Origin: Chondrosia reniformis
Taxonomy: Eukaryota; Porifera; Demospongiae; Chondrillida; Chondrillidae
DNA: 64,000 nt
Direction of reading: 5' to 3'
NCBI GenBank assembly: GCA_947172415.1
Contig: OX359198.1
Coordinates: 5,859,401-5,923,400 of the forward strand
The position numbers were made by a program, and so were the translations under genes. The notes below the pieces were generated by a model. It had not been told where the DNA came from and made no database searches. It saw only the letters and a list, made by a program, of their open reading frames with translations. Shown here piece by piece: positions 166 to 48,990 of the stretch (within the stretch, counting starts at the first letter, position 1; each line of letters begins with the position of its first letter).

Positions 166-680
166 TGCCTATCTATTGGGGCAAGTAGTTTGTCCACTGT
201 ATAGAGGCTGCTTAATGACAGAATTTTTTAAATGACCTTAGACATACGTTTGTATGTATGTATGTACATTAAGTGTGCATGGTTGCTATTGATGAACTCC
301 AACCAATCATACTTCATTATATGTGGGGTTGCTAGTGACTGTAGAATATCAAGGAGATGGGAGGTTGTCTTTTTGCGGAGGTGTGAGTGTGAAGGTCGTA
401 TTTGGTTGTATGAGGAGAACACGTTTCTTGAGACACGCTTTGTGTGCTATGAAAGTAGTAAGACTACAATTCTCTGACAACCTCATATAATTACGAATGC
501 GATACCCTACAGCACGTATGTACATGTTTTACAAAATGCACTTTGTACATGGATTCATGTTTACAGATGATAAAGTTTAAGGTTTTGATCTCAGCAATCT
601 TGCTCAGTTTCATGTAATGTTAAATTAGAGGTCGTGTGGCTCATGTGTTATGTATGTACCTGCTGCTTCATTTGATGTAG

Positions 681-38484: not shown

Positions 38485-38548
38485 TACATTACATCAATTT
38501 GGACTTTCACAGAACTGTGTTTCAGGTCCAAAAATCATAATTAACATA
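38485..38548 (-). promoter_or_regulatory. SECIS-like element of selenoprotein copy A
   Basis: Read on the minus strand, ATGA (38538-38535) is followed by a stem TTTGGAC, the bulge TGAAA, a mini-stem CACAG/CTGTG, then the closing stem GTCCAAA and TGAT (38496-38493). This is the layout of a form II eukaryotic SECIS: AUGA/UGAU quartet, about 12 nt to the unpaired A bulge, and an extra apical stem. It starts 59 nt past the stop of copy A. The stem differs from copies B and C by compensatory changes. Confidence 0.8.
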
Positions 38549-38596: not shown

Positions 38597-39658
38597 CTAT
38601 TTTTTATGATTTGCCTGCAGGGCTCCAAGAATCTCTTCAACACTTGGTCGATGTGTAGCACTTTCTCCCTGGAAAGAATAAATTACTTGACCACTTTCTG
38701 TGATGACATAATCACCTCCTGCCTTGAAATTTTGAGACTCTTCCAGATCTGCAGTCACCTGGTATTGGCCCCCAGCAGCCATGCTGGCATAAACGTTCAT
38801 GCTAGACACATTCCACATGGTCCTTGAGACTGGCAATCGTCCTAAGGTAAATATATCATAGAGCTTCAGTTCTGGATCAGCTATCATTTGAAACTGGCAA
38901 TTTGTTTCCATCAATGCAGTTTGTTGATTTTTCTTCTCTTTGTAGAATGTCACCACAACTGGACGACATTCATATTGCTCCAGTTGAGAAAGGACACTCG
39001 TCACTTCCTCAACATGGAACTTACATGGATGTCATCCAACTCTGCGAAGGAGGATGAAAAGGGTATTCTTGGATTGAGACAAGATGTCTTTCAGGCTTAT
39101 CATCTTTTCCAGCTTGATGTCCTTGAACTCATAGTTCAGCAACTCTTCATGGAGACCATCTCCAACCTTCAGAGGCTCATTGGCAAAAGCTGGTTTCTCC
39201 TTTGCCATCTTCTCTTCAAACCGTTCAACGAATTTAGACCACGTTTCTTCAATGTCTTCAAGTTCCCGGTACGCCTCCTGCACAGCGGAATTATCAGAAA
39301 ATTTCTGTACGACTTCGAAAAGTTCCCATCTCCCAAAGAGGGAAAGACTTGTGAAGCAATCTCTATACGAATTAATAGCTTCCAAACGATCCATCGTTCC
39401 TCTGACAGAAAATTCGTGGGCAGACCAGGAGGCGAATTTCTCTTCCAATTCCCCCAAAATGATCACAATTTTCTTCCTTACTTCTACTAGAGCCGCAACG
39501 AGTTCTCTACAATCAGGTATTGGAAGTGCTGCATCTTCTCTAACTTTTCTATAGAACAATTTGGTTCTGGGATTGATGGTTTTTATGACTGCAGCTCCGT
39601 GTTTAAGCCACCTAGGCCCTGGTTGAGGTGGATGCACGTTACTCGTACTAGTGGCCAT
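38597..39658 (-). CDS. Selenoprotein copy A: helical domain + PRXL2/AhpC-TSA-like redoxin (UxxC)
   Basis: Intronless, 353 residues counting TGA 39034-39032 as Sec209. Residues about 50-200 are predominantly helical and charged (LVAALVEVRKKIVIILGELE, AYRELEDIEETWSKF, EKMAKEKPAF). A thioredoxin-fold domain follows: SLKDILSQSKNTLFILLRRV, then G-U-H-P-C, CRPVVVTFYKEK, FQMIADPELKLYDIFTLGRL, FKAGGDYVITESGQVIYSFQ and RPSVEEILGAL. This is the order seen in PRXL2/SelU-like proteins, where UxxC or CxxC is the redox centre. The frame is open on both sides of the TGA, and a SECIS-like hairpin follows the stop. The start ATG at 39658 gives MATSTSNVHPP; an upstream in-frame start at 39718 is possible. Substrate unknown; a thiol/selenol oxidoreductase role is inferred from the fold. 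It lies 194 bp upstream of the MLYCD start, same strand, and is divergent from copy B. Confidence 0.85.
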
Positions 39659-39876
39659 ATGTATACCTTCCACTAGATTCAGGCTATACAGCTTATAAAT
39701 ACTCTGATATCTTACCACACAAAGTTATCACCTGAATATTTCACTTAATTATAGTCTGACGCTACAGCTTGTTGCGGTTATCTGGCTCCGGCCCAGCAGC
39801 GGGTCAAATTACTAATTGGGGGTTCATCAATATCTATGGTTGAATGCCGATTTGTGTGTAACCGTAACAGTTGAAA

Positions 39877-40690
39877 ATGGCCGCCTCTAGCGAACGGCTC
39901 GAATATTCGCCGTGGAGAGCTTCAAATGCTTGGTTAAGCGCACGAAACAAAGGGTACTTGCCAACCTTACCCATGCCCAACGTTTTCTGGAGCGGTATCG
40001 TGAAGATCAGCACCTATTCTCGCTTCAGCCTTAATTTTTCCTTCCAGCCAAGCTCAATTGATATCCACAGCATCCTACTGAGCTTGCTCCCTATTCATCT
40101 GCATCTCCTATTCCTCTCCTCTTTCCATGGGCCTTCCCATTGCTTTCCATCAACCTTTCTGCTTCAAGTTATAGTTGAGAGATAACTCAATTTATAATTT
40201 CTACAAAACTGTTTAAATATTGAAAAAAAAGAACAATACCTTCCACACCATGCATGGACCTTTCCCTATTCTCCGCCCTCTATATGTACATGCATTCTCC
40301 CACTCCATCGTATGCATTCCTGCATGTCGTACTTCCAAGTAACTCCAAACTCCAGCATTTTCCAAGTGCACTGCATGCACCATTCTCTTTTAGTTTCCCC
40401 CTCCCTCCTGCAAATCTGTTAACGTCCCTTCCAACTACTTCACACTCACGCACATACATGCATACACATGGCACTCATGGCGCTACGAAATGCTACGGCC
40501 ATTGCTAACAGGCTCCTCTTCGATCCTGGCCTTCATCACGCTTCTGCTAGATATACCTCCCATGCACCTTTGTCGATTTCGCTAGCCCTGTCTATACCAA
40601 TGATCGCATGCAGAACAATCGCCTAAAACTCGCTCAGGCTCGGCCCCACGATGATTCTGCCTAATGTATTATTATTATCACTAGGCTAGT
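39877..40690 (+). other. GC-richer region with coding-like fragments
   Basis: A possible start (MAASSERLEYSPWRASNAWL) at 39877 and an overlapping open frame with coding character (ANLTHAQRFLERYREDQHLF) at about 39960-40030, then C/T-rich sequence and a block ending in a short (ATT)n run at about 40670. No family recognised and no consistent single frame. It may be a decayed gene or retroelement 3' end. Confidence 0.25.
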
Positions 40691-41101
40691 GTAATAGATA
40701 ATAAATATACATTAAAATTTTGTTTATATTTTTGTGTAGAATTTAAATGTGTTCATATAAAAAAATATAAACCCACCCACTCCCATGCAGCTAATAACGA
40801 CATTAATTGATTGAACACTGAACCAAACAATACACGACGAGTGGTCTCCAGAACGTGACTGCCTCGGAAGCGATGTTGCAGACTTACTTACTGTCGCGTG
40901 GGAAGTCTGTCGAGTGTTCTCCAGAACGTGACTGACAAGCGGCTGGTTTATTGTGACACTAGATATACAAATAAAGCCACACCCTCAATAAGTATATAAA
41001 GGAATTCCTGCTTATCGTAGTAAGTGCGTTAGCCGAACCGTGCAATATTTAAAGATCAAGTCTCTGCTCGAAATTGTCTGTCTATAGTGGTCTCGAGTTC
41101 C

Positions 41102-42133
41102 ATGGCAGATAATTTTGGACCAACGAATCCCCCTCCAGAATTAAAAGACCAGAGTAACAAGAAGGCCAGGGAATTGTTTACGAGTCTAATAAGAGATGAT
41201 AAACTTATTCCGATGGTTGATCCAAAAGCACTAGTCGTAGCCTTGCAATGCTTGTACGGGAAAATCTTAGCAGTCCTAGAGAACCTAGAAAGGATGTACA
41301 GTTCTCTGTCTGCCCATGAACTCTCTATCAAAGGCGCAACCTATCGGATAGAGACTATACGTGCTTATGCAGAATGTTATAAAAGTCTTTCCCTTCTCGG
41401 TAGATGGGAGCTCTCTAAGGTTACACAGAAATTTACTGATGATTCCGCTGTGCTGGAGGTGTACCGGGAACTTGAAGACATTGAAGAAAACTGGTCTAAA
41501 TTCGTTGAGAAATTTGAAGAGAAGATGGCAAAGGAGAAACCAGCTTTTGCCAATGAGCCTCTGAAGGTTGGAGATGGTCTCCCTGAAGAGTTGCTGAACT
41601 ACGAGTTCAAGGACATCAAGCTGGAAAAGATGATAAGTCTGAAAGACATCTTGTCTCAATCCAAGAATACCCTTTTCATCCTCCTTCGCAGAGTTGGATG
41701 ACACCCATGTAAGCTCCATGTTGAGGAAGTGACGAGTGCCCTTTCTCAACTGGAGCAATATAGATGTCATCCAGTTGTGGTGACATTCTACAAAGAGAAG
41801 AATAGTCAACAAGCTTTGCTGGCTCACATAAATTGTCAGCTTCAAATGATAGCTGATCCAGAGCAGAAATTGTACAATTTGTTTACTTTGGGGAGGCTAC
41901 CTCTCTCACTTACTCAGTGGAGCGGATTTGCTGTAAAAAGTTATGCAGCTCTGGTAATTGCAGGATTGTATACTTTGGAACCAGAGCTGGAGGTAAACCA
42001 GCTTCTTAAGGCTGGTGGTGATTGTGTGATTAGGCAGGATGGACTTGTAACCTATTCGTTTCAGGCAAAGGGTCCCACACACAGGCCAGAAATGGAAGAC
42101 ATTCTCGCAGCCTTAAAGGAAGATCATTGTTAA
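41102..42133 (+). CDS. Selenoprotein copy B: helical domain + PRXL2/AhpC-TSA-like redoxin (UxxC)
   Basis: Intronless, 343 residues counting TGA 41699-41701 as Sec200; stop TAA 42131-42133. The N-terminal helical part includes NLERMYSSLSAHELSIKGAT and YKSLSLLGRWELSKVTQKF. The redoxin part starts ISLKDILSQSKNTLFILLRR, then V-G-U-H-P-C-K, CHPVVVTFYKEKN, QMIADPEQKLYNLFTLGRL, LKAGGDCVIRQDGLVTYSFQ and RPEMEDILAALKEDHC. Translation after the TGA stays in frame without any shift. ATG 41102 (MADNFGPTNPPPEL) was chosen because copy C begins with the same MADN(F/I)GPPN. The 5' flank shares gatgttgcagactta with copy C, so promoter and gene were duplicated together. It is divergent from copy A. Confidence 0.86.
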
Positions 42134-42185
42134 GAACAGCTATAAACTTCATTAATATTTAGTAGTAGATGTGTCATCATTTCAT

Positions 42186-42246
42186 GTAGCATGAAATTTG
42201 AACTCAAAACACAATTTTGTGCAAGTTCAGATTGATGTATAATTAT
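42186..42246 (+). promoter_or_regulatory. SECIS-like element of selenoprotein copy B
   Basis: ATGA (42191-42194), 11 nt including the stem TTTGAACT, the bulge AAAA, a mini-stem CACA/TGTG, the closing stem AGTTCAGA and TGAT (42233-42236). Flanking GTCAT and ATGAC, a few bases further out, could add a basal stem. It lies 57 nt after the TAA and 490 nt after the Sec codon. The element is nearly identical to that of copy C. Confidence 0.82.
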
Positions 42247-42561
42247 GACTGGTGTAGTGTAATTCACATTTAAAGAAATGCGCATGCTTTGTTAATAACT
42301 TTAATTTACAAATGTAGATGAACATGTGTCATTTTCGACATTAGGGGGAGACTCTCATTCTGGTTTCCATCAAGCGAACATCGGTTCTGCCCATTAGCTC
42401 ATTGCGCTCCTTAGGGGACATGAGTAATCAATTTAAGAGCTTACAGTTCCCTAGGCCTATTTTTCCATTTAACGCATTTCAACAGTTCAGAATGTGTAAA
42501 ATTAAATTACTGCCAAAAATGGCTTTATTGATTGATTTATGTGGTGATAATTGATGATACA

Positions 42562-43577
42562 TTAGAAGTAGGGATGGCAGTGCTTAATTCCAACAGTCAC
42601 TAGCTTATATCTGGAAAAAGAAACCAAAAAAGACAGGGATCAATATCATTTGACAAGGTTAACCATACAGAAGTGGCATATTATTATTATTATTATTATT
42701 ATTATTTATTGATTTAAGTGCACCGTGTGACATGCACACTAGGGCTACTTGGCCCCATGTAGCACTATACAATATAATACATCATAAGGAGTTCCCTTGC
42801 ATGCCCCTTCAATGTAGTAAAACCCCTCATAGATACATATACGTAGTCTCATTCATGCTTGTTTGCTTCCTCTAACTGCACAGGGTCTCAATCTAGGCTG
42901 ACTGTACACCCTCTCAATTTTCCAAAAATCATGTTTCCACATAGTTTCTAGTTCCACCAAAATCTTTTCCTCACCAGACACTTCAACCCACCAGATATCT
43001 TTTCCTTCTCTTCTTTTAAAGTTTCTTACTAAGTTTAATTTTTCAGCACTAGCACACCAAGCAATAACATGTTTCTCAATTTGCCTAACATGAAGCGACT
43101 TCCTCAAGCCCCAAATTTTCCTTAAATATTTCATTGTATTTTGCCGGTCTTCCACTTTGCAGGTATTATACGAATTTACCTCACCGTTAGCAGCCTTTGA
43201 TTGTGAACTTCCACTCTTATTCTTCTCCAACCTTGGGAATTCGCCTGCCAACTTTGTAGCTGACCCTCTGGGATATTTCTCGGCAATACTCTGTTTTAGT
43301 CGGCACTCTAATTTTATCAAATCAGCCTCTCTATATATATATAAGTGACTTAACGTTAACCATATGCACATCTCTTTCATGTTACGTTTGGGTGCATCGG
43401 CATAGCTGAAGTAGGGATGATGTGCCCAAACATAGAAGTGATGTGTATGGTTAAGTCACTATATACCACTTCTGTGTGATATATCCTTGTCACATGATCC
43501 CTTTCTTGTTTTGTTACCTGCTAGTGCTAGTGATCATGACTGTTGGAAGCACTGCCATCCCTTTTCTAATTTCATTT
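42562..43577. repeat. Palindromic MITE family B split by a LINE-like insertion
   Basis: The left half (42562-42679, attagaagtagggatggcag ... accatacagaagtggcata) and right half (about 43345-43577, aagtgacttaac ... gcactgccatccctt) together make one family B element. The inserted segment between them starts with (TTA)n. Confidence 0.75.
42680..43340 (-). mobile_element. LINE-like 3' fragment with (AAT)n tail
   Basis: On the minus strand the segment ends in an (AAT)n tail (42680-42712) preceded by a short 3' UTR and an open frame of about 160 codons (43340 to 42853). It includes EKYPRGSATKLAGEFPRLEK and WCASAEKLNLVRNFKRREGK. The protein piece is Lys/Arg-rich and not assigned to a domain. The AAT-repeat tail and insertion into a MITE fit target-primed retrotransposition. 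Confidence 0.5.
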
Positions 43578-43845
43578 TAAACTGAAATATATGACACTTC
43601 AATAAATGGCTAATAGTGGTAATTCCTTATGGGGTATTCCCCCAGACCCCCCTAGTTGCATCCGTCACATTATGTCATTACCCCATCAGCCTGCCCTCCC
43701 CCCAAAAAAATATAAAAATTCATTTCTTTATTATATATTGCAAATGCAGGCTTTACTGCCATTAACCCCATCACATTTCTAATATTCTTAACAGCAATTT
43801 ATATATACACATATTTTCTATATATTATGAACATTATAATACAAA

Positions 43846-45301
43846 CTATATAATCAGCACATAGTCATGCAAATGTCTTTGATGAGCTGATTTGTGTTTA
43901 AAGTACAAACATTTTAGCATTCCAACAATCAAAGCTCCAATAACAGTCAAAGCCAATCCACTAGAAAAGCCAATTAAATTGCTTAAATCATCAGAATATT
44001 TACCATAGAGAGCCACATAAACAATTTTTACCATGGAAAACAATGCTGAAGATAAAAGACAGATATAAAGGGAATAGAAACAGTTGAGAACCTCTTTCCT
44101 TGCAAGTGACTTCTTCCTCTGAACGCATATAAAAATAATATGAAAGATGCTGAAAACCATATAAGACAAACTGCTGCAAAGGAAAAATATCAACATTATT
44201 TCAATCACTCTGTATATAATAGCAATTGGCCAACTGATAAGGCCAAGAAATAGCCAAAAAGTAAATGAAGCCAGCCATTCCAAAGGTAGTAGAAAGAGCA
44301 CCAGCCTCAGTATTCTCCATACCCTTCCTCTTCTCCTTTTGCATAAAGCATGAATGCAAAAGAAAACCAGAAGCATGCAATTGAATATTAAGAGTCCAAA
44401 TATTGTCCAGGGTACAATATACACCTGCACTTCTTGTTCCTTACTCATCTTCCATAAATTAAGTACTTTGTTTTTACTCAGTTTCTGGTAATAAAATAGA
44501 AGCATCATGTATGATGCTAACGCTACAGAAAATGCAATTTTCTTATTTCCCTTCAAACAAACATCTACAGTGCTATTCTCTGAATAATTGTAGAAGATCC
44601 AACATGCACATAGGCTCAGCAGATATGGTATAAGCAGAATCAAGTAGTAGGATGCTAAAGGTACCCGTTTATTGTTTAATTCAGCAGTTCTGACTTCAAG
44701 ATTATTCATCGCTGACTTTGAAATTCCTTCCCTGACAGCCATAATGATTAAGTCTAGTTGACTCGTGATGATATGCTACATAATTAAATACCATGAACAT
44801 GTAGATATAATAATATTTAAGCCATTAATAGATTTAGAGTGTATATATACAACTTACTAGTTCTGGGTCACAAAAGGGCATGATCCAGACCATATTTTCA
44901 AAAAGAACATCATCAAAACCATGGCTAGCTTCTGGAATAATTGCTGAGTAAAGTAGATCACATCTAACTAGATAGAATATCACTGATTTGAAAAGTTGAA
45001 CTGTTTGGGATCTATAATAGGAACAATTATTTACAGGGTCTGCCCAAGGAGATGAGCCATAACAACAGTTTCCATCTTTATTAGTACTATTTTCTGGGGT
45101 AAGGAGCGTCAAATGAATCTGTTGGTATTGCATCCTTAGCCATAGAAAAGTTGCCACCTTATCAGCTAAACTGTTGTAGAACATTTTCTCACTGTATCGT
45201 TGACAAGAACAGTTTGTTTCATTATGATGAGAAGTTTTGAAATGATGTTCTTTTCCAGTTGCACACCCCAACAGTGCCAGAAAGAAGACAATGTTTATCA
45301 T
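43846..45301 (-). CDS. Orphan multipass membrane protein with signal peptide (7TM-like)
   Basis: Two exons, 44858-45301 and 43846-44775, join in phase to 457 aa. The N terminus MINIVFFLALLGCATGKEHH is a likely signal peptide. A Cys- and Asn-rich ectodomain follows with several N-glycosylation sequons (NET, NCS, NST, NCS). The second exon encodes seven hydrophobic stretches, among them YYLILLIPYLLSLCACWIFY, TIFGLLIFNCMLLVFFCIHA, CLLSSALFSMVKIVYVALYG and SSGLALTVIGALIVGMLKCL. An ectodomain plus seven segments suggests an orphan receptor, but no GPCR motif (DRY, NPxxY, GPS) is seen, and the family is not recognised. It is divergent from OMA1, 165 bp apart. Confidence 0.75.
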
Positions 45302-45466
45302 AACTGTGGATATATCACCTACAAGGATATCTAATGGTATATTATTGAAATTTGGTTTTATAGCTGTAATTTTTATACCATTTATAGCTTAAAGACCATT
45401 TTCATAATGGTATAAGCATACAAAATGGAAGCACAGCGGAAGCCACGATTAGGAGGTTAGAGTAAA
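45302..45466. promoter_or_regulatory. Divergent promoter region (7TM-like gene / OMA1)
   Basis: 165 bp between two oppositely directed start codons. It contains the repeated word taccatttatag/ataatggtata but no certain core element; the call rests on layout. Confidence 0.45.
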
Positions 45467-46570
45467 ATGGCGACACCTTTTCGAGAAATTCATCGAAATA
45501 TATTCTTAGGTTACCGAGGAAATTTACCAAAGCTAAGACAACCAGTGCGACATGTTGGGTTTATCGTTCCTTTTCTGAAAGGTGCAAGTCGCCTTGGTGC
45601 TATTTTAATCGGTAGGAGTGCTCGTAACTGGTGGAGGAAGCTTCCTAGGGATAAACAAGTCCACTATAGATCAACGCTATATAAAATACGACACTGGTTC
45701 TACATTTTAGGTGGTACGCTGTTAGGATCCGGTCTTTTGTACTATGTAGCACATCTGGAGGAAACGCCTATTACTAAAAGGAAACGATTCATTAGCATCA
45801 CCGATGAAGAACTTAAAAAGATATCTGTTGCAGAGAGAGATATGTATATGGAAGTGTTTCGCAATTCTAACTCCATTTACCAAGCAGATGACTTAAGACA
45901 TGAAGTAACTAGAGGAGTTGTTGAGAAACTGCTGGCCAGCGGAATCACAGAAAAAATGGCAGAGATACATTGGAAGCTGTATATCATTGAATGCAATGCA
46001 GTGAATGCCTTTGTTTTGCCAACTGGTGAAATATTTGTGTTTACTGGCCTGATCAAGTCATTGAAAAATGAAGACGAATTAGCCACTATACTAGGGCATG
46101 AAATAGCTCATGCAATTCTTAATCATGCAGCAGAAGGTGTTAGCCACAAAGCTGCACTAGAAATAGTAGCATTTGGAATCATTGCTGTAATATGGGCTGT
46201 ACTTCCCAATGACATCGTATCGTATATGATTCAACAATTGCATAATAAAATTGTTGACATGTTTCTAGGTCTACCATACAGTCGTAAATTGGAAAGGGAA
46301 GCTGATGAAGTAGGAATGATGATTGCAGCTAAGGCTTGTTTTGATCCACAGGCTGCTCCTGCCCTGTGGCAAAGACTTCATGAAAGGCAGGAAGAGGAAG
46401 GAGGTGACGCACAGGAAAACGAATACCTCTCTACTCATCCTTCTCACAAGAGAAGAAAAGAGTATTTAGAATCACTGCTGCCTAATGCCCTGGCCATTTC
46501 TGAGGCCAACCAATGTACTAAAATGATACCAGAAGCACAGCAATTTAGAAAAATGTTTAAACTTTTGTAG
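45467..46570 (+). CDS. OMA1: OMA1 mitochondrial inner-membrane metalloprotease (M48)
   Basis: Intronless, 367 aa, stop TAG 46568-46570. OMA1 cuts OPA1 and other substrates when the inner membrane is depolarised. The zinc motif HEIAH is at residues 211-215 (ATILGHEIAHAILNHAAEGV) with the third ligand in LEREADEVG. FVLPTGEIFVFTGLIKSLKN, upstream of the zinc site, is also typical of M48. The Arg-rich N terminus and the hydrophobic stretch WFYILGGTLLGSGLLYYVAH (about residues 85-104) fit a mitochondrial presequence and the inner-membrane anchor. The protein is shorter than human OMA1 (about 524 aa), mostly at the N terminus. Lack of introns is shared with the neighbouring selenoprotein genes and may mean retroposition or intron loss. 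Confidence 0.94.
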   Translation: MATPFREIHRNIFLGYRGNLPKLRQPVRHVGFIVPFLKGASRLGAILIGRSARNWWRKLPRDKQVHYRSTLYKIRHWFYILGGTLLGSGLLYYVAHLEETPITKRKRFISITDEELKKISVAERDMYMEVFRNSNSIYQADDLRHEVTRGVVEKLLASGITEKMAEIHWKLYIIECNAVNAFVLPTGEIFVFTGLIKSLKNEDELATILGHEIAHAILNHAAEGVSHKAALEIVAFGIIAVIWAVLPNDIVSYMIQQLHNKIVDMFLGLPYSRKLEREADEVGMMIAAKACFDPQAAPALWQRLHERQEEEGGDAQENEYLSTHPSHKRRKEYLESLLPNALAISEANQCTKMIPEAQQFRKMFKLL

Positions 46571-46635
46571 TAACATTTGTGTCTCTTGTTTTAGTATAGC
46601 TGTATTATAAATAGAAAAAAATATTTTTTTATAAG

Positions 46636-46765
46636 GAAGTTAGAAATAGGAATGACGGTGCTTGTAGCAGTGACTAGCACCGACTTGGAAAGGTAACAAA
46701 ACATGCAAAAATATAGGGGTCATGTGATAAAGCTGAAAGTTCATGATAGCTACATACCATCAGGT
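46636..46765. repeat. MITE family B half-copy
   Basis: Begins gttagaaataggaatgacgg and continues through caaaacatgcaaaaatatag and gggtcatgtgataaagctg, matching the left half of family B only. Confidence 0.6.
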
Positions 46766-46952
46766 TAAAGGATTTGACTGAGTATATATGTAAGCATTTA
46801 GAGCTCTTCGCTTAATGCGCCCAGGCAGTGAGTCGGGGCCATGTACGTTTCTACCTTAAATTCGGCCATCTTTTTCAGCCCCATCGATGTTGCAGACTTA
46901 TATACTTTAAATACAGTAACTAATATCGTGGGTAATCTGTCGTGTGGTCTCA

Positions 46953-47993
46953 ATGGCAGATAATATTGGACCACCGAATCTCCCTCCAGAATTCCTTGCT
47001 AAGTCGAAGATTTTTAAAGACCAGAGTAACAAGAAGGCCAGGGAATTGTTTATGAGTCTAATAAGAGATGATAAACTTATTCCGATGGTTGATCCAAAAG
47101 AACTAGTCGTAGCCTTGCAAGGCTTGTACGGGAAAATCGTAGCAGTCCTAGAGAACCTAGAAAGGATGTACAGTTCTCTGTCTGCCCATGAACTCTCTAT
47201 CAAAGGCGCAACCTATCGGATAGAGACTATACGTGCTTATGCAGAATGTTATAAAAGTCTTTTCCTTCGCGGAAGATGGGAGCTCTCTAAGGTTACACAG
47301 AAATTTTCTGATAATTCCGCTGTGCAGGAGGCGTACCGGGAACTTCAAGACATTGAAGAAAACTGGTCTAAATTCCTTGAAAAGTTTGAAGAGAAGATGG
47401 CAAAGGAGAAACCAGCTTTTGCCAATGAGCCTCTGAAGGTTGGAGATGGTCTCCCTGAAGAGTTGCTGAACTACGAGTTCGAGGACATCAAGCTGGAAAA
47501 GATGATAAGCCTGAAAGACATCTTGTCTCAATCCAAGAATACCCTATTCATCCTCCTTCGCAGAGTTGGATGACACCCATGTAAGCTCCATGTTGAGGAA
47601 GTGACAAGTGCCCTTTCTCAACTGGAGCAATGTGAATGTCGTCCAGTTGTGGTGACATTCTACAAAGAGAAGAATAGTCAACAAGCTTTGCTGTCTCACA
47701 TAAATTGTCAGCTTCAAATGATAGCTGATCCAGAGCAGAAATTGTACAATTTGTTTACTTTGGGGAGGTTTCCTATAACAATCACTCAGTGGAGCATAAA
47801 TGCTATAAATATTTATGCAGCTCTGGTAATTGCAGGATTGTATACTTTGGAACCAGAGCTGGAGGCAAACCAGCTTCTTAAGGCTGGTGGTGATTGTGTG
47901 ATTAGGCAGGATGGACTTGTAATCTATTCGTTTCAGGCAAAAGATCCAGCACACAGGCCAGAAATGGAAGACATTCTTACAGCCTTAAATTAA
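46953..47993 (+). CDS. Selenoprotein copy C: helical domain + PRXL2/AhpC-TSA-like redoxin (UxxC)
   Basis: Intronless, 346 residues counting TGA 47571-47573 as Sec207; stop TAA 47991-47993. Very close to copy B throughout, with an extra AKSKIF segment near residue 20. Core pieces: SLKDILSQSKNTLFILLRRV, then G-U-H-P-C-K, CRPVVVTFYKEKN, QMIADPEQKLYNLFTLGRF, LKAGGDCVIRQDGLVIYSFQ and RPEMEDILTALN. Substitutions relative to copy B occur on both sides of the TGA without breaking the frame, as expected if the downstream part is translated. ATG 46953 (MADNIGPPNLPPEF) matches the copy B start. The SECIS-like hairpin follows 63 nt after the stop. Confidence 0.86.
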
Positions 47994-48048
47994 AAGGAGC
48001 ATCATTGTGAAGAACAGTAATTAAATGATAATACTTGTGTCATTATGT

Positions 48049-48112
48049 CATATATCATGAAATTTGAACTCAAAACACAATTTTGTGCAAGTTCAGATTG
48101 ATGTATAATTAT
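48049..48112 (+). promoter_or_regulatory. SECIS-like element of selenoprotein copy C
   Basis: ATGA (48057-48060) and TGAT (48099-48102) enclose the same stem, AAAA bulge and CACA/TGTG mini-stem as in copy B. The sequence just outside the quartet differs between B and C, while the core is unchanged, which is what selection on the core would give. Confidence 0.82.
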
Positions 48113-48419
48113 GACTGGTGAGCTGTATATTTTAGCAGTATAATACACATTTTTGTAATATATATAGCAAATTTAAACTGGACTATATGTATCATCACTA
48201 TATACCAGGAAGCGTCTTTGGATATGCCACAATTAGGTTAAACCAACTTTTTGTGGTATCATCTATGAAGCCAGCTTTGACCCGCATACATATAAAATTT
48301 GTCTGATAGCCCAGCTTATAATGGATGTCTGTAATTAATACAGACAAGCTGTCCACTTGCATTGACTTGTGGAATTAAATTGTATGGTGAGAGATATATA
48401 GGGCATATAGGTTAGCTGA

Positions 48420-48990
48420 CTACAGGCTCATTAAGAGAACGCCCTCAACTGATGACTATATAAGGACTGGTAATTTTGATAAAAGGAGAGTCCTGGCAGC
48501 CCTGAGGTGTGGGTGCCTCCCTCTCGAAATTGAGAAGGGCAGATTGAGACACCCTAAGGTTGATCTGGAGAGCAGGATTTGCCAGCTGTGTAACTGTGGT
48601 GCAATAGAGGACTCCACTCATTTTATTACAACCTGTCCAGCTTTCAATCATATAAGATGTAATCTTTTTGCTGAATGCTCACTTTTATCCCCTAACTTCT
48701 ACTCTTACCCAAGTATCCAAAAAAACCACTTCATCCTAACATACCCAAATCAAAAGATCTCAAATTATATTTACAGTATGTACATTCATCGTAAATCTCT
48801 CACTCATTCTCACTAATTTTTGTTCCATAAAGGTTTTGTAATACATACACCCTCCCTGCATGGCCCTGGAAATGTATACCCCTGCTAGTGACTTGTAAAC
48901 CCACCATGGGTTGGGCTATTTCTGACTGATCTTTTTTTCAGAATAGCATGTCACATTAATAAAAATCATTATTATTATTATTATTATATG
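48420..48990 (+). mobile_element. Non-LTR retrotransposon 3' end (reverse transcriptase C terminus + tail)
   Basis: Translation RTGNFDKRRVLAALRCGCLP ... RICQLCNCGAIEDSTHFI ... CPAF shows the zinc-knuckle (CxxC...HFxxxCP) that ends many LINE reverse transcriptases. It runs to a stop near 48816, then a 3' UTR (aatgtgacttgtaaac-like words) and an (ATT)n tail at about 48967-48988. 5'-truncated: no polymerase core is present. The 3' UTR resembles the tail at 54226-54350, so both come from one family. Confidence 0.75.

Follow-up and report, generated by a model that had tools for sequence, protein, structure and literature searches.

Three neighbouring genes on chromosome 10 of the kidney sponge Chondrosia reniformis each carry one TGA within the coding frame, and the question that this locus raises is whether the codon ends the protein or is read as selenocysteine (Sec) and, in the latter case, to which selenoprotein family the genes belong. 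The window, i.e., the whole stretch of DNA analysed, is 64,000 nucleotides long, and the three copies (A, B and C; Table 1) all lie inside 9.4 kb of it, each as a single open coding frame. Translation with TGA as Sec gave an uninterrupted protein from every copy and verified all the coordinates of a preliminary description, in which the locus had been presented as three paralogous frames with one in-frame TGA each. The motif U-H-P-C following ILLRRVG, also claimed there, was seen in three of three copies (as ILLRRVG-U-H-P-C-K), with the TGAs in one alignment column. The tail past the TGA is open for 144 (A), 143 (B) and 139 (C) codons, and the chance of its staying open at its own base composition is 5.9e-5, 1.3e-4 and 8.5e-5, respectively. 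Standard annotation probably truncates the three genes.

Table 1. Features of the three-gene cluster, in positions of the window; Sec and SECIS assignments are putative.
Feature	Position	Strand	Remarks
Copy A CDS	38597..39658	-	353 aa with TGA=Sec; Sec at residue 209 (UHPC); real stop TAG
Copy B CDS	41102..42133	+	343 aa with TGA=Sec; Sec at residue 200 (UHPC); real stop TAA
Copy C CDS	46953..47993	+	346 aa with TGA=Sec; Sec at residue 207 (UHPC); real stop TAA
Sec UGA codon, copy A	39032..39034	-	in-frame TGA
Sec UGA codon, copy B	41699..41701	+	in-frame TGA
Sec UGA codon, copy C	47571..47573	+	in-frame TGA
81-nt UGA hairpin, copy A	38959..39039	-	-45.0 kcal/mol, z -10.3 vs dinucleotide shuffles
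81-nt UGA hairpin, copy B	41694..41774	+	-38.9 kcal/mol, z -8.1
81-nt UGA hairpin, copy C	47566..47646	+	-40.4 kcal/mol, z -7.0
SECIS core, copy A	38493..38538	-	AUGA ... AAA apical ... UGAU; 58 nt past stop
SECIS core, copy B	42191..42236	+	57 nt past stop; identical to copy C core
SECIS core, copy C	48057-48102	+	63 nt past stop
Rfam SECIS_1 match 3′ of copy C	48047..48115	+	29.6 bits, below the gathering score of 35

The comparison of dN/dS on either side of the TGA, which had been proposed as a check on the conservation of the downstream part, gave 0.28 past the TGA for A against B and likewise for A against C, no higher than before it, where the values are 0.37 and 0.41 for the whole part and 0.30 and 0.33 for alignment columns below 150. 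Judged by these two comparisons, the frame past the TGA is under purifying selection; B and C, with ratios of 0.98 before and 0.93 after the TGA from 22 and 29 changes, have diverged too little for their comparison to tell. Between about alignment column 150 and the TGA, copy A is nearly identical to B and C, with a dS of 0.054 versus 1.0–1.4 elsewhere, and this low-dS tract in A looks like the product of gene conversion. The low dS ahead of the UGA was not ascribed to functional constraint alone, since the tract covers some 200–300 nt and lies mostly upstream of the hairpin that surrounds the UGA (see below); gene conversion fits better.

A SECIS pattern with a core energy of -8 kcal/mol or lower occurs three times in the 64 kb, both strands included, and these occurrences are the three 3′UTRs, so that pattern and fold are found in 3/3 genes, 57–63 nt past the real stop. 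The successful pattern was drawn up after all three candidates had been seen by eye and is not a blind test. An earlier pattern gave no match in any of four UTRs (A, B, C and a SelL paralogue of the same genome, described below); the revised one matched A, B and C and not the paralogue, the SECIS of which was matched only by a looser form with NGA on the 3′ side, which has 17 matches in the window, 7 of them at -8 kcal/mol or lower. Rfam SECIS_1 reported one of the three elements, that of copy C, at a score below gathering. The core of A differs from that of B and C at 11 of 46 positions, and all 11 tested stem pairs are kept, one of them via changes on both sides; with only two distinct rows in the comparison, 248 of 500 shuffles reach the same pair count. 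The SECIS regions (86–96 nt) are only modestly more stable than their shuffles (z -1.9, -0.6 and -1.9). The search for the Sec machinery, which was directed at tRNA-Sec and SepSecS, found a tRNA-Sec of 76.8 bits with the anticodon UCA, and SepSecS stretches on C11. Because the SECIS-like elements are well placed, coding is conserved past the TGA and these parts of the machinery are present in the genome, the three clustered genes very probably encode selenoproteins in which UGA is read as Sec, as the preliminary description had held; Sec insertion at the UGAs is what we infer from this combination.

In each gene, moreover, the UGA forms part of the basal stem of a predicted hairpin, 32–35 bp long and with a short loop. 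Among 3000 synonymous recodings of each gene, 0 (A), 7 (B) and 0 (C) were as stable as the natural hairpin, i.e., the stability of the RNA around the Sec UGA goes beyond what the protein requires in all three genes. No such hairpin was found at the UGA of the SelL paralogue, for which 795 of 1000 synonymous recodings were at least as stable as the natural sequence. Four of the hairpin pairs vary among the copies, three being retained via G-U and one broken in B; none of the 26 counted pairs changed on both sides, and the shuffles did equally well (500/500). The hairpin lies in or beside the converted tract, and the three genes are therefore not three independent cases. In a 180-nt context, the best fold of copy C retains the inner part of the hairpin only, and a second strong fold window follows the UGA in B and C (at +243/+246, with -28.2 and -28.7 kcal/mol).

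Stable coding-region structures at a Sec UGA are described, in the available portions of the sources, as the SRE of SELENON, SELENOT and SPS2 and as the hymenopteran HRE (PMC8704476, PMC4561486, PMC3541580). The Chondrosia structure resembles them in this respect, but differs from what these portions describe in that, by folding, its UGA sits inside the stem base of one long hairpin. Its appearance is that of a Sec redefinition element of great strength, with a putative effect on UGA decoding. The hairpin seems to be a novel feature of the cluster, and no mention of one at these UGAs was found in the literature searched, with searches that were not aimed at family and hairpin together. Three genes with a strong UGA hairpin and, in the same genome, a SelL paralogue without one offer a direct test of what coding-region hairpins do in eukaryotic Sec insertion.

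Other readings of the UGA and of its hairpin have to be weighed against Sec insertion. Under the standard reading, the TGA would be an ordinary stop, giving products of 208 (A), 199 (B) and 206 aa (C) from the starts used, and the downstream frame would be a relic, with which the B–C dN/dS past the TGA would agree; against the A–B and A–C values, the three open tails, the SECIS-like elements and the homology of the tail to the corresponding part of the UxxU SelL gene, this reading is extremely improbable. A hairpin of such unusual stability overlapping the UGA might instead allow a near-cognate tRNA to decode the codon with selenium unused, as proposed for the SPS1-UGA genes of Hymenoptera, which are described in the accessible text of PMC4561486 as lacking a SECIS and as having UGA-overlapping structures. 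In Chondrosia, however, SECIS-like elements are kept in all three genes, tRNA-Sec and SepSecS are present, and the UGA falls in a redox motif where Sec or Cys would be the chemically sensible residue, and Sec-independent read-through is very unlikely. The length and short loop of the hairpin would also suit a precursor of microRNA type or a substrate for editing, and a chance-level Rfam microRNA match falls exactly on the hairpin of copy A, though on the strand complementary to it (38959-39039 +; 22.9 bits, E 2.7). This match is far under the gathering score of 60, the hairpin is anchored on the UGA in 3/3 genes whereas the SelL paralogue lacks it, and the editing paper PMC9076623 concerns, in its available part, a SELENON intron and not a UGA hairpin; a use other than recoding is very unlikely.

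The preliminary description had assigned the Sec proteins to the PRXL2/SelU type, and this assignment was not supported. PF13911 (AhpC-TSA_2, cut-off 27 bits) scored 30.5 for A, 27.0 for B and 24.4 for C, but the best profile for the cluster was SelL_rel_redox (NCBIfam NF040769), with 84.9–87.5 bits and E values from 8e-25 to 5e-24; the curated cut-off of this profile is 120 bits, and the cluster stays below it, while the SelL paralogue (L004) reaches 136.1. The latter, 1.3 Mb from the cluster, is its nearest paralogue in the genome and has the motif UMPU. Over about 300 aa it shares 29% (A, E 3e-38), 31% (C, E 4e-36) and 31% (B) with the cluster proteins, and the N-terminal domain is common to both. 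The SelU3 of the genome is a separate, intron-bearing gene on C3 near 9035829, whose motif RRFG-U-QLC has Sec at the same position as the cluster; it scores only 21–25 bits on the SelL profile, and one of its exons matches prostamide/prostaglandin F (PGF) synthase in the PDB at E 1.2e-12. In contrast, copy C alone found no PDB chain at E up to 1, and a four-row profile matched a bacterioferritin-comigratory peroxiredoxin (E 0.4) ahead of PGF synthase (E 0.6), i.e., no significant similarity to PRXL2 proteins was found in this comparison with solved structures. Membership of the superfamily and the position of the motif are what the cluster has in common with SelU/PRXL2, and a PRXL2/SelU-type identity is very improbable.

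By sequence and domain layout, the cluster is nearer to SelL than to SelU. It departs from SelL in its UxxC active site, in its sub-cut-off score and in the strong UGA hairpin, which has no counterpart in the SelL paralogue. The active site of SelL is UxxU, with two neighbouring Sec residues; this arrangement was not found in the cluster, all three copies being UHPC, and is present only in the paralogue. The protein is treated in PMC3316567 and PMC2397514. Since the same scaffold occurs naturally with UxxU and with UxxC in this one genome, the purpose of the second Sec can be tested. Outside the Chondrosia genome, tblastn confirmed none of 499, 78, 111 and 36 pattern-matched stretches from genome and viral contig collections as relatives, and nothing was found in phage records queried with the SelL paralogue.

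It is highly likely that the cluster encodes thioredoxin-fold selenoproteins of the SelL branch, with the UGA recoded as Sec via the hairpin and the 3′UTR SECIS. The proteins would consist of a probably helical N-terminal domain of some 140 aa, followed by a C-terminal one with a predicted peroxiredoxin-like fold, assigned from Pfam and NCBIfam profiles, with U-H-P-C where SelL has U-x-x-U. A ribosome reaching the UGA in the basal stem would meet a very stable hairpin acting as a Sec redefinition element, and the SECIS together with SECIS-binding protein, Sec elongation factor and tRNA-Sec would then bring about insertion of Sec and no termination. In the catalytic cycle that we infer, the Sec selenol would attack its substrate, either a peroxide or a disulfide; the Cys of U-H-P-C, three residues further along, would then resolve it to a selenenylsulfide, to be reduced by cellular thiol systems. 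Beyond this, it is conceivable, if rather doubtful, that the hairpin works as a switch responding to selenium or stress, perhaps derived from a bacterial-type UGA-proximal SECIS, which together with the 3′UTR SECIS sets the ratio of a short N-terminal-domain protein to the full selenoenzyme in a SelL-derived, sponge-expanded family.

The cluster probably belongs to Aq.AphC.like, a family of Sec proteins restricted to sponges and possessing a thioredoxin-like domain, which was described in 2012 from Amphimedon queenslandica, Oscarella carmela and Suberites domuncula (PMC3473315), and the family is therefore not new; the likeness of the two is one of description. In the literature searched, this was the only report of the sponge family that was found. 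Amphimedon has three such genes, two of them in tandem, with SECIS elements, and a separate SelL gene; the Chondrosia cluster agrees with this in its sponge host, in Sec within a Trx-like domain and in clustered genes besides SelL. The Amphimedon genes, in contrast to the single open frames of Chondrosia, have two, two and five coding exons, and their SECIS is of the GUGA type, that of Chondrosia AUGA. The authors related Aq.AphC.like to prokaryotic AhpC, whereas the Chondrosia cluster groups with SelL, and if the two are the same, a family filed near bacterial AhpC becomes linked to SelL. Sec in a UxxC of an AhpC/Prx-like domain is also described, in the accessible parts of the sources and in other organisms, for algal AhpC_b (PMC7539508) and for bacterial Prx-like thiol:disulfide oxidoreductases, in which UxxC and UxxU occur side by side (PMC13188914, PMC2398784); this likeness, too, is one of description. 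Three further DNA matches (L005–L007) were rejected as extra genes, and are copies of a dispersed repeat that contains 177–195 bp of the gene but not its UGA.

When the TGA is read as Sec, each of the three paralogous genes of the cluster (copies A, B and C) on contig C10 (the window being C10 5859401-5923400) is translated as a single uninterrupted frame, of 353, 343 and 346 aa, respectively. Each frame contains one TGA, which falls in a common alignment column in 3/3, bearing out the preliminary description of one in-frame TGA per paralogue at an equivalent position. The open tails after the TGA extend over 144 (A), 143 (B) and 139 (C) codons, with chance probabilities of 5.9e-5, 1.3e-4 and 8.5e-5. 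The comparison of dN/dS around the TGA proposed in the same description was run and gave 0.28 after the TGA for A-B as well as for A-C; before it, the values were 0.37 (A-B) and 0.41 (A-C) over the whole part, and 0.30 and 0.33 over alignment columns <150. The B-C pair, with values of 0.98 before the TGA (22 changes) and 0.93 after it (29 changes), holds too few changes to be informative either way. From about column 150 to the TGA, copy A is almost the same as B and C (dS 0.054), a tract that is likely the product of gene conversion.

A first SECIS pattern gave no match. The revised pattern (A/GUGA, a helix of at least 7 pairs, unpaired AA or CC, and U/CGA, plus a folding test), which was composed once all three candidates had been seen by eye and was thus not blind, gave 7 matches on both strands of the window, 3 of them with a core energy of -8 kcal/mol or lower, and it places a core shortly after the stop of every copy. 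Six 64-kb Markov resamples (one strand each) contained 2, 1, 0, 1, 3 and 0 matches at or below this core energy, from which the probability of a chance match in a 150-nt UTR is p ~0.003. The Rfam search at E up to 10 listed a SECIS match for copy C and none for A and B. The core of A differs from that of B/C at 11/46 positions with the stem pairs kept (11/11), one of them despite changes in both partners and another despite a change in a single partner, a retention equalled by 248/500 shuffles, there being only two distinct rows. The whole SECIS regions (86-96 nt) fold with z-scores of -1.9 (A), -0.6 (B) and -1.9 (C).

Coordinates of the features in the window and of related genes elsewhere in the genome
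Feature	Position	Strand	Remarks
Stop codon, copy A			TAG
Stop codon, copy B			TAA
Stop codon, copy C			TAA
SECIS core, copy A	38538-38493	-	58 nt past stop, revised pattern
SECIS core, copy B	42191-42236	+	57 nt past stop, revised pattern
SECIS core, copy C	48057-48102	+	63 nt past stop, revised pattern
Rfam SECIS_1 match, copy C	48047-48115	+	54 nt past stop; 29.6 bits, below gathering 35
SelL gene (L004)	1414-2376 of L004 = C10:7229510-7230469		one open frame, U-M-P-U = SelL signature
SelU3-type gene with introns (L019)	1199-1990; C3 near 9035829		UGA exon RRFG-U-QLC, intron-like flanks
tRNA-Sec gene	C12:1386063-1386148		76.8 bits (Rfam cut-off 47); ARAGORN: tRNA-SeC, anticodon tca
C/D box snoRNA snoZ155	403-483	+	44.3 bits, cut-off 43
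mir-9-like hairpin, weak	45340-45409	+	27.3 bits, gathering score 58.6
Peptidase M48 gene, between copies B and C	45467-46570	+	PF01435, 117.6 bits
ORF	48544-48816	+	Cys/His pattern recalling end of LINE reverse transcriptase
HDV-like ribozyme RF02682	49868-49940	+	47 bits

The part of the cluster most worth testing is an unexpectedly strong hairpin at the UGA. Folding predicted one 81-nt hairpin per gene, which takes in the 5 nt preceding the UGA, the codon itself and the 73 nt that follow, with energies of -45.0 (A, z -10.3), -38.9 (B, z -8.1) and -40.4 kcal/mol (C, z -7.0), and in each case 0/200 shuffles were as stable. The 93-nt folds contain 35, 32 and 32 pairs in A, B and C (consensus 32), with the UGA inside the basal stem. 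Synonymous recodings were as stable in 0/3000 (A), 7/3000 (B) and 0/3000 (C) cases over 84 nt, and in 0/1000, 1/1000 and 0/1000 over 75 nt. Of all 75-nt windows along the gene, the one that starts 3 nt ahead of the UGA is the most stable in A and C, and in B a window from 12 nt past the UGA, overlapping the same hairpin, is slightly more stable; B and C have a second strong window at +243/+246 (-28.2 and -28.7 kcal/mol). An energy of -29 kcal/mol was reached by 0/639 coding windows in the SelL and M48 peptidase genes and by 18/5114 segments across the window. The SelL paralogue folded without such a hairpin (z +0.7; 795/1000 recodings as stable), and the SelU3 UGA region reached -27.2 kcal/mol, yet with a z of just -1.8. 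Where hairpin pairs vary (n=4), pairing is kept via G-U in three and broken in B in one; double-sided changes number 0 among the 26 pairs counted, and shuffles match the pair retention. Within a 180-nt context the entire hairpin is kept in A and B and the inner part alone in C. As a folding model, the hairpin fits a Sec redefinition element, such as those described in SELENON, SELENOT and SPS2 (PMC8704476, PMC4561486, PMC3541580), and a structure overlapping the UGA is likewise described there for hymenopteran SPS1-UGA (PMC4561486).

The preliminary description had assigned the cluster to the PRXL2/SelU type. Its reading as a selenoprotein cluster stands, given the frames, the SECIS pattern, the selection and the genes for tRNA-Sec and SepSecS; the SelU assignment is not supported, given the top profile and a separate SelU gene on C3. 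The best profile for all three copies was NCBIfam SelL_rel_redox (A 87.5 bits, E 7.8e-25; B 84.9 bits, E 4.9e-24; C 87.3 bits, E 8.8e-25; all below the cut-off of 120 bits), which was also the top profile for the SelL gene located 1.3 Mb away (136.1 bits). Alignment with that gene includes the N-terminal domain and spans ~300 aa, at 29% identity for A (E 3e-38) and 31% for C (E 4e-36), with 31% for B; the gene also has a SECIS-like hairpin directly after its stop, provided that the 3' side may be GGA. SelU scored just 21-25 bits on the SelL profile, and its exon on C3 matched prostamide/PGF synthase in a PDB search (E 1.2e-12). The copy C protein as a single query found no PDB match at E up to 1, and a four-row cluster profile gave a Bcp-type peroxiredoxin (E 0.4) and PGF synthase (E 0.6). 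The Pfam scores of A, B and C were 30.5, 27.0 and 24.4 bits for AhpC-TSA_2 (cut-off 27) and 21.5, 24.6 and 23.3 bits for AhpC-TSA (cut-off 26), and the N-terminal domain of C matched RH1 weakly (18.4 bits, below the cut-off of 24). A 17-residue CD1375_fam match in C (26.2 bits versus a cut-off of 22.5) was taken for chance. By sequence, then, the cluster appears to sit on the SelL side, yet is not filed as SelL proper, because the UxxU motif is absent and the score lies under the curated cut-off.

We conclude that the selenoprotein cluster is real, and its genes are probably new members of an already published sponge family. The sponge-only Sec family Aq.AphC.like comprises three Amphimedon genes, two of them in tandem, as well as members in Oscarella and Suberites, and is listed separately from Aq.SelL (PMC3473315). 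Compared by description, the cluster resembles it in host, clustering, Trx-like domain and the presence of a separate SelL, and on this basis orthology is likely. SelL itself is described with two Sec residues, two apart, and one SECIS for both (PMC3316567), and UxxC AhpC/Prx-like selenoproteins are likewise reported from an alga (PMC7539508) and from bacteria (PMC13188914).

The genome comprises 117.38 Mb in 15 contigs, with COX1 found on the fifteenth, and the published assembly of Chondrosia reniformis is given as 117.37 Mb with 14 chromosomes and a mitochondrion (PMC12181767). The genome encodes a tRNA-Sec, in a search whose Rfam model also gave signals in 14/14 control genomes (above cut-off in 5), and SepSecS, with four matching stretches on C11. 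A second tRNA-Sec match above the cut-off (47.4 bits) was called tRNA-Ser by ARAGORN. In the proposed mechanism, the ribosome at the UGA would be slowed or biased by the hairpin while Sec is brought by the SECIS complex; in the finished enzyme, the Sec would attack a peroxide or disulfide, the Cys at +3 would provide resolution, and thiols would recycle the enzyme.

A dispersed repeat of >2 kb was found in three copies (L005 on C9, L006 on C6 and L007 on C1), in all of which the selenoprotein gene is represented by 177-195 bp, 83-89% identical, that stop ~10 nt (2 copies) or 30 nt (1 copy) before the Sec codon; apparently, a mobile element captured a gene fragment. The M48 peptidase gene is presumably OMA1-like. 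The mir-9-like hairpin is probably due to chance, and the ORF at 48544-48816 had no match in a Pfam search at E 0.01. The HDV-like ribozyme has at least 61 scored matches genome-wide, at least 59 of them above the cut-off, and because these are many and often equal in score, the one in the window is probably carried by a repeat family.
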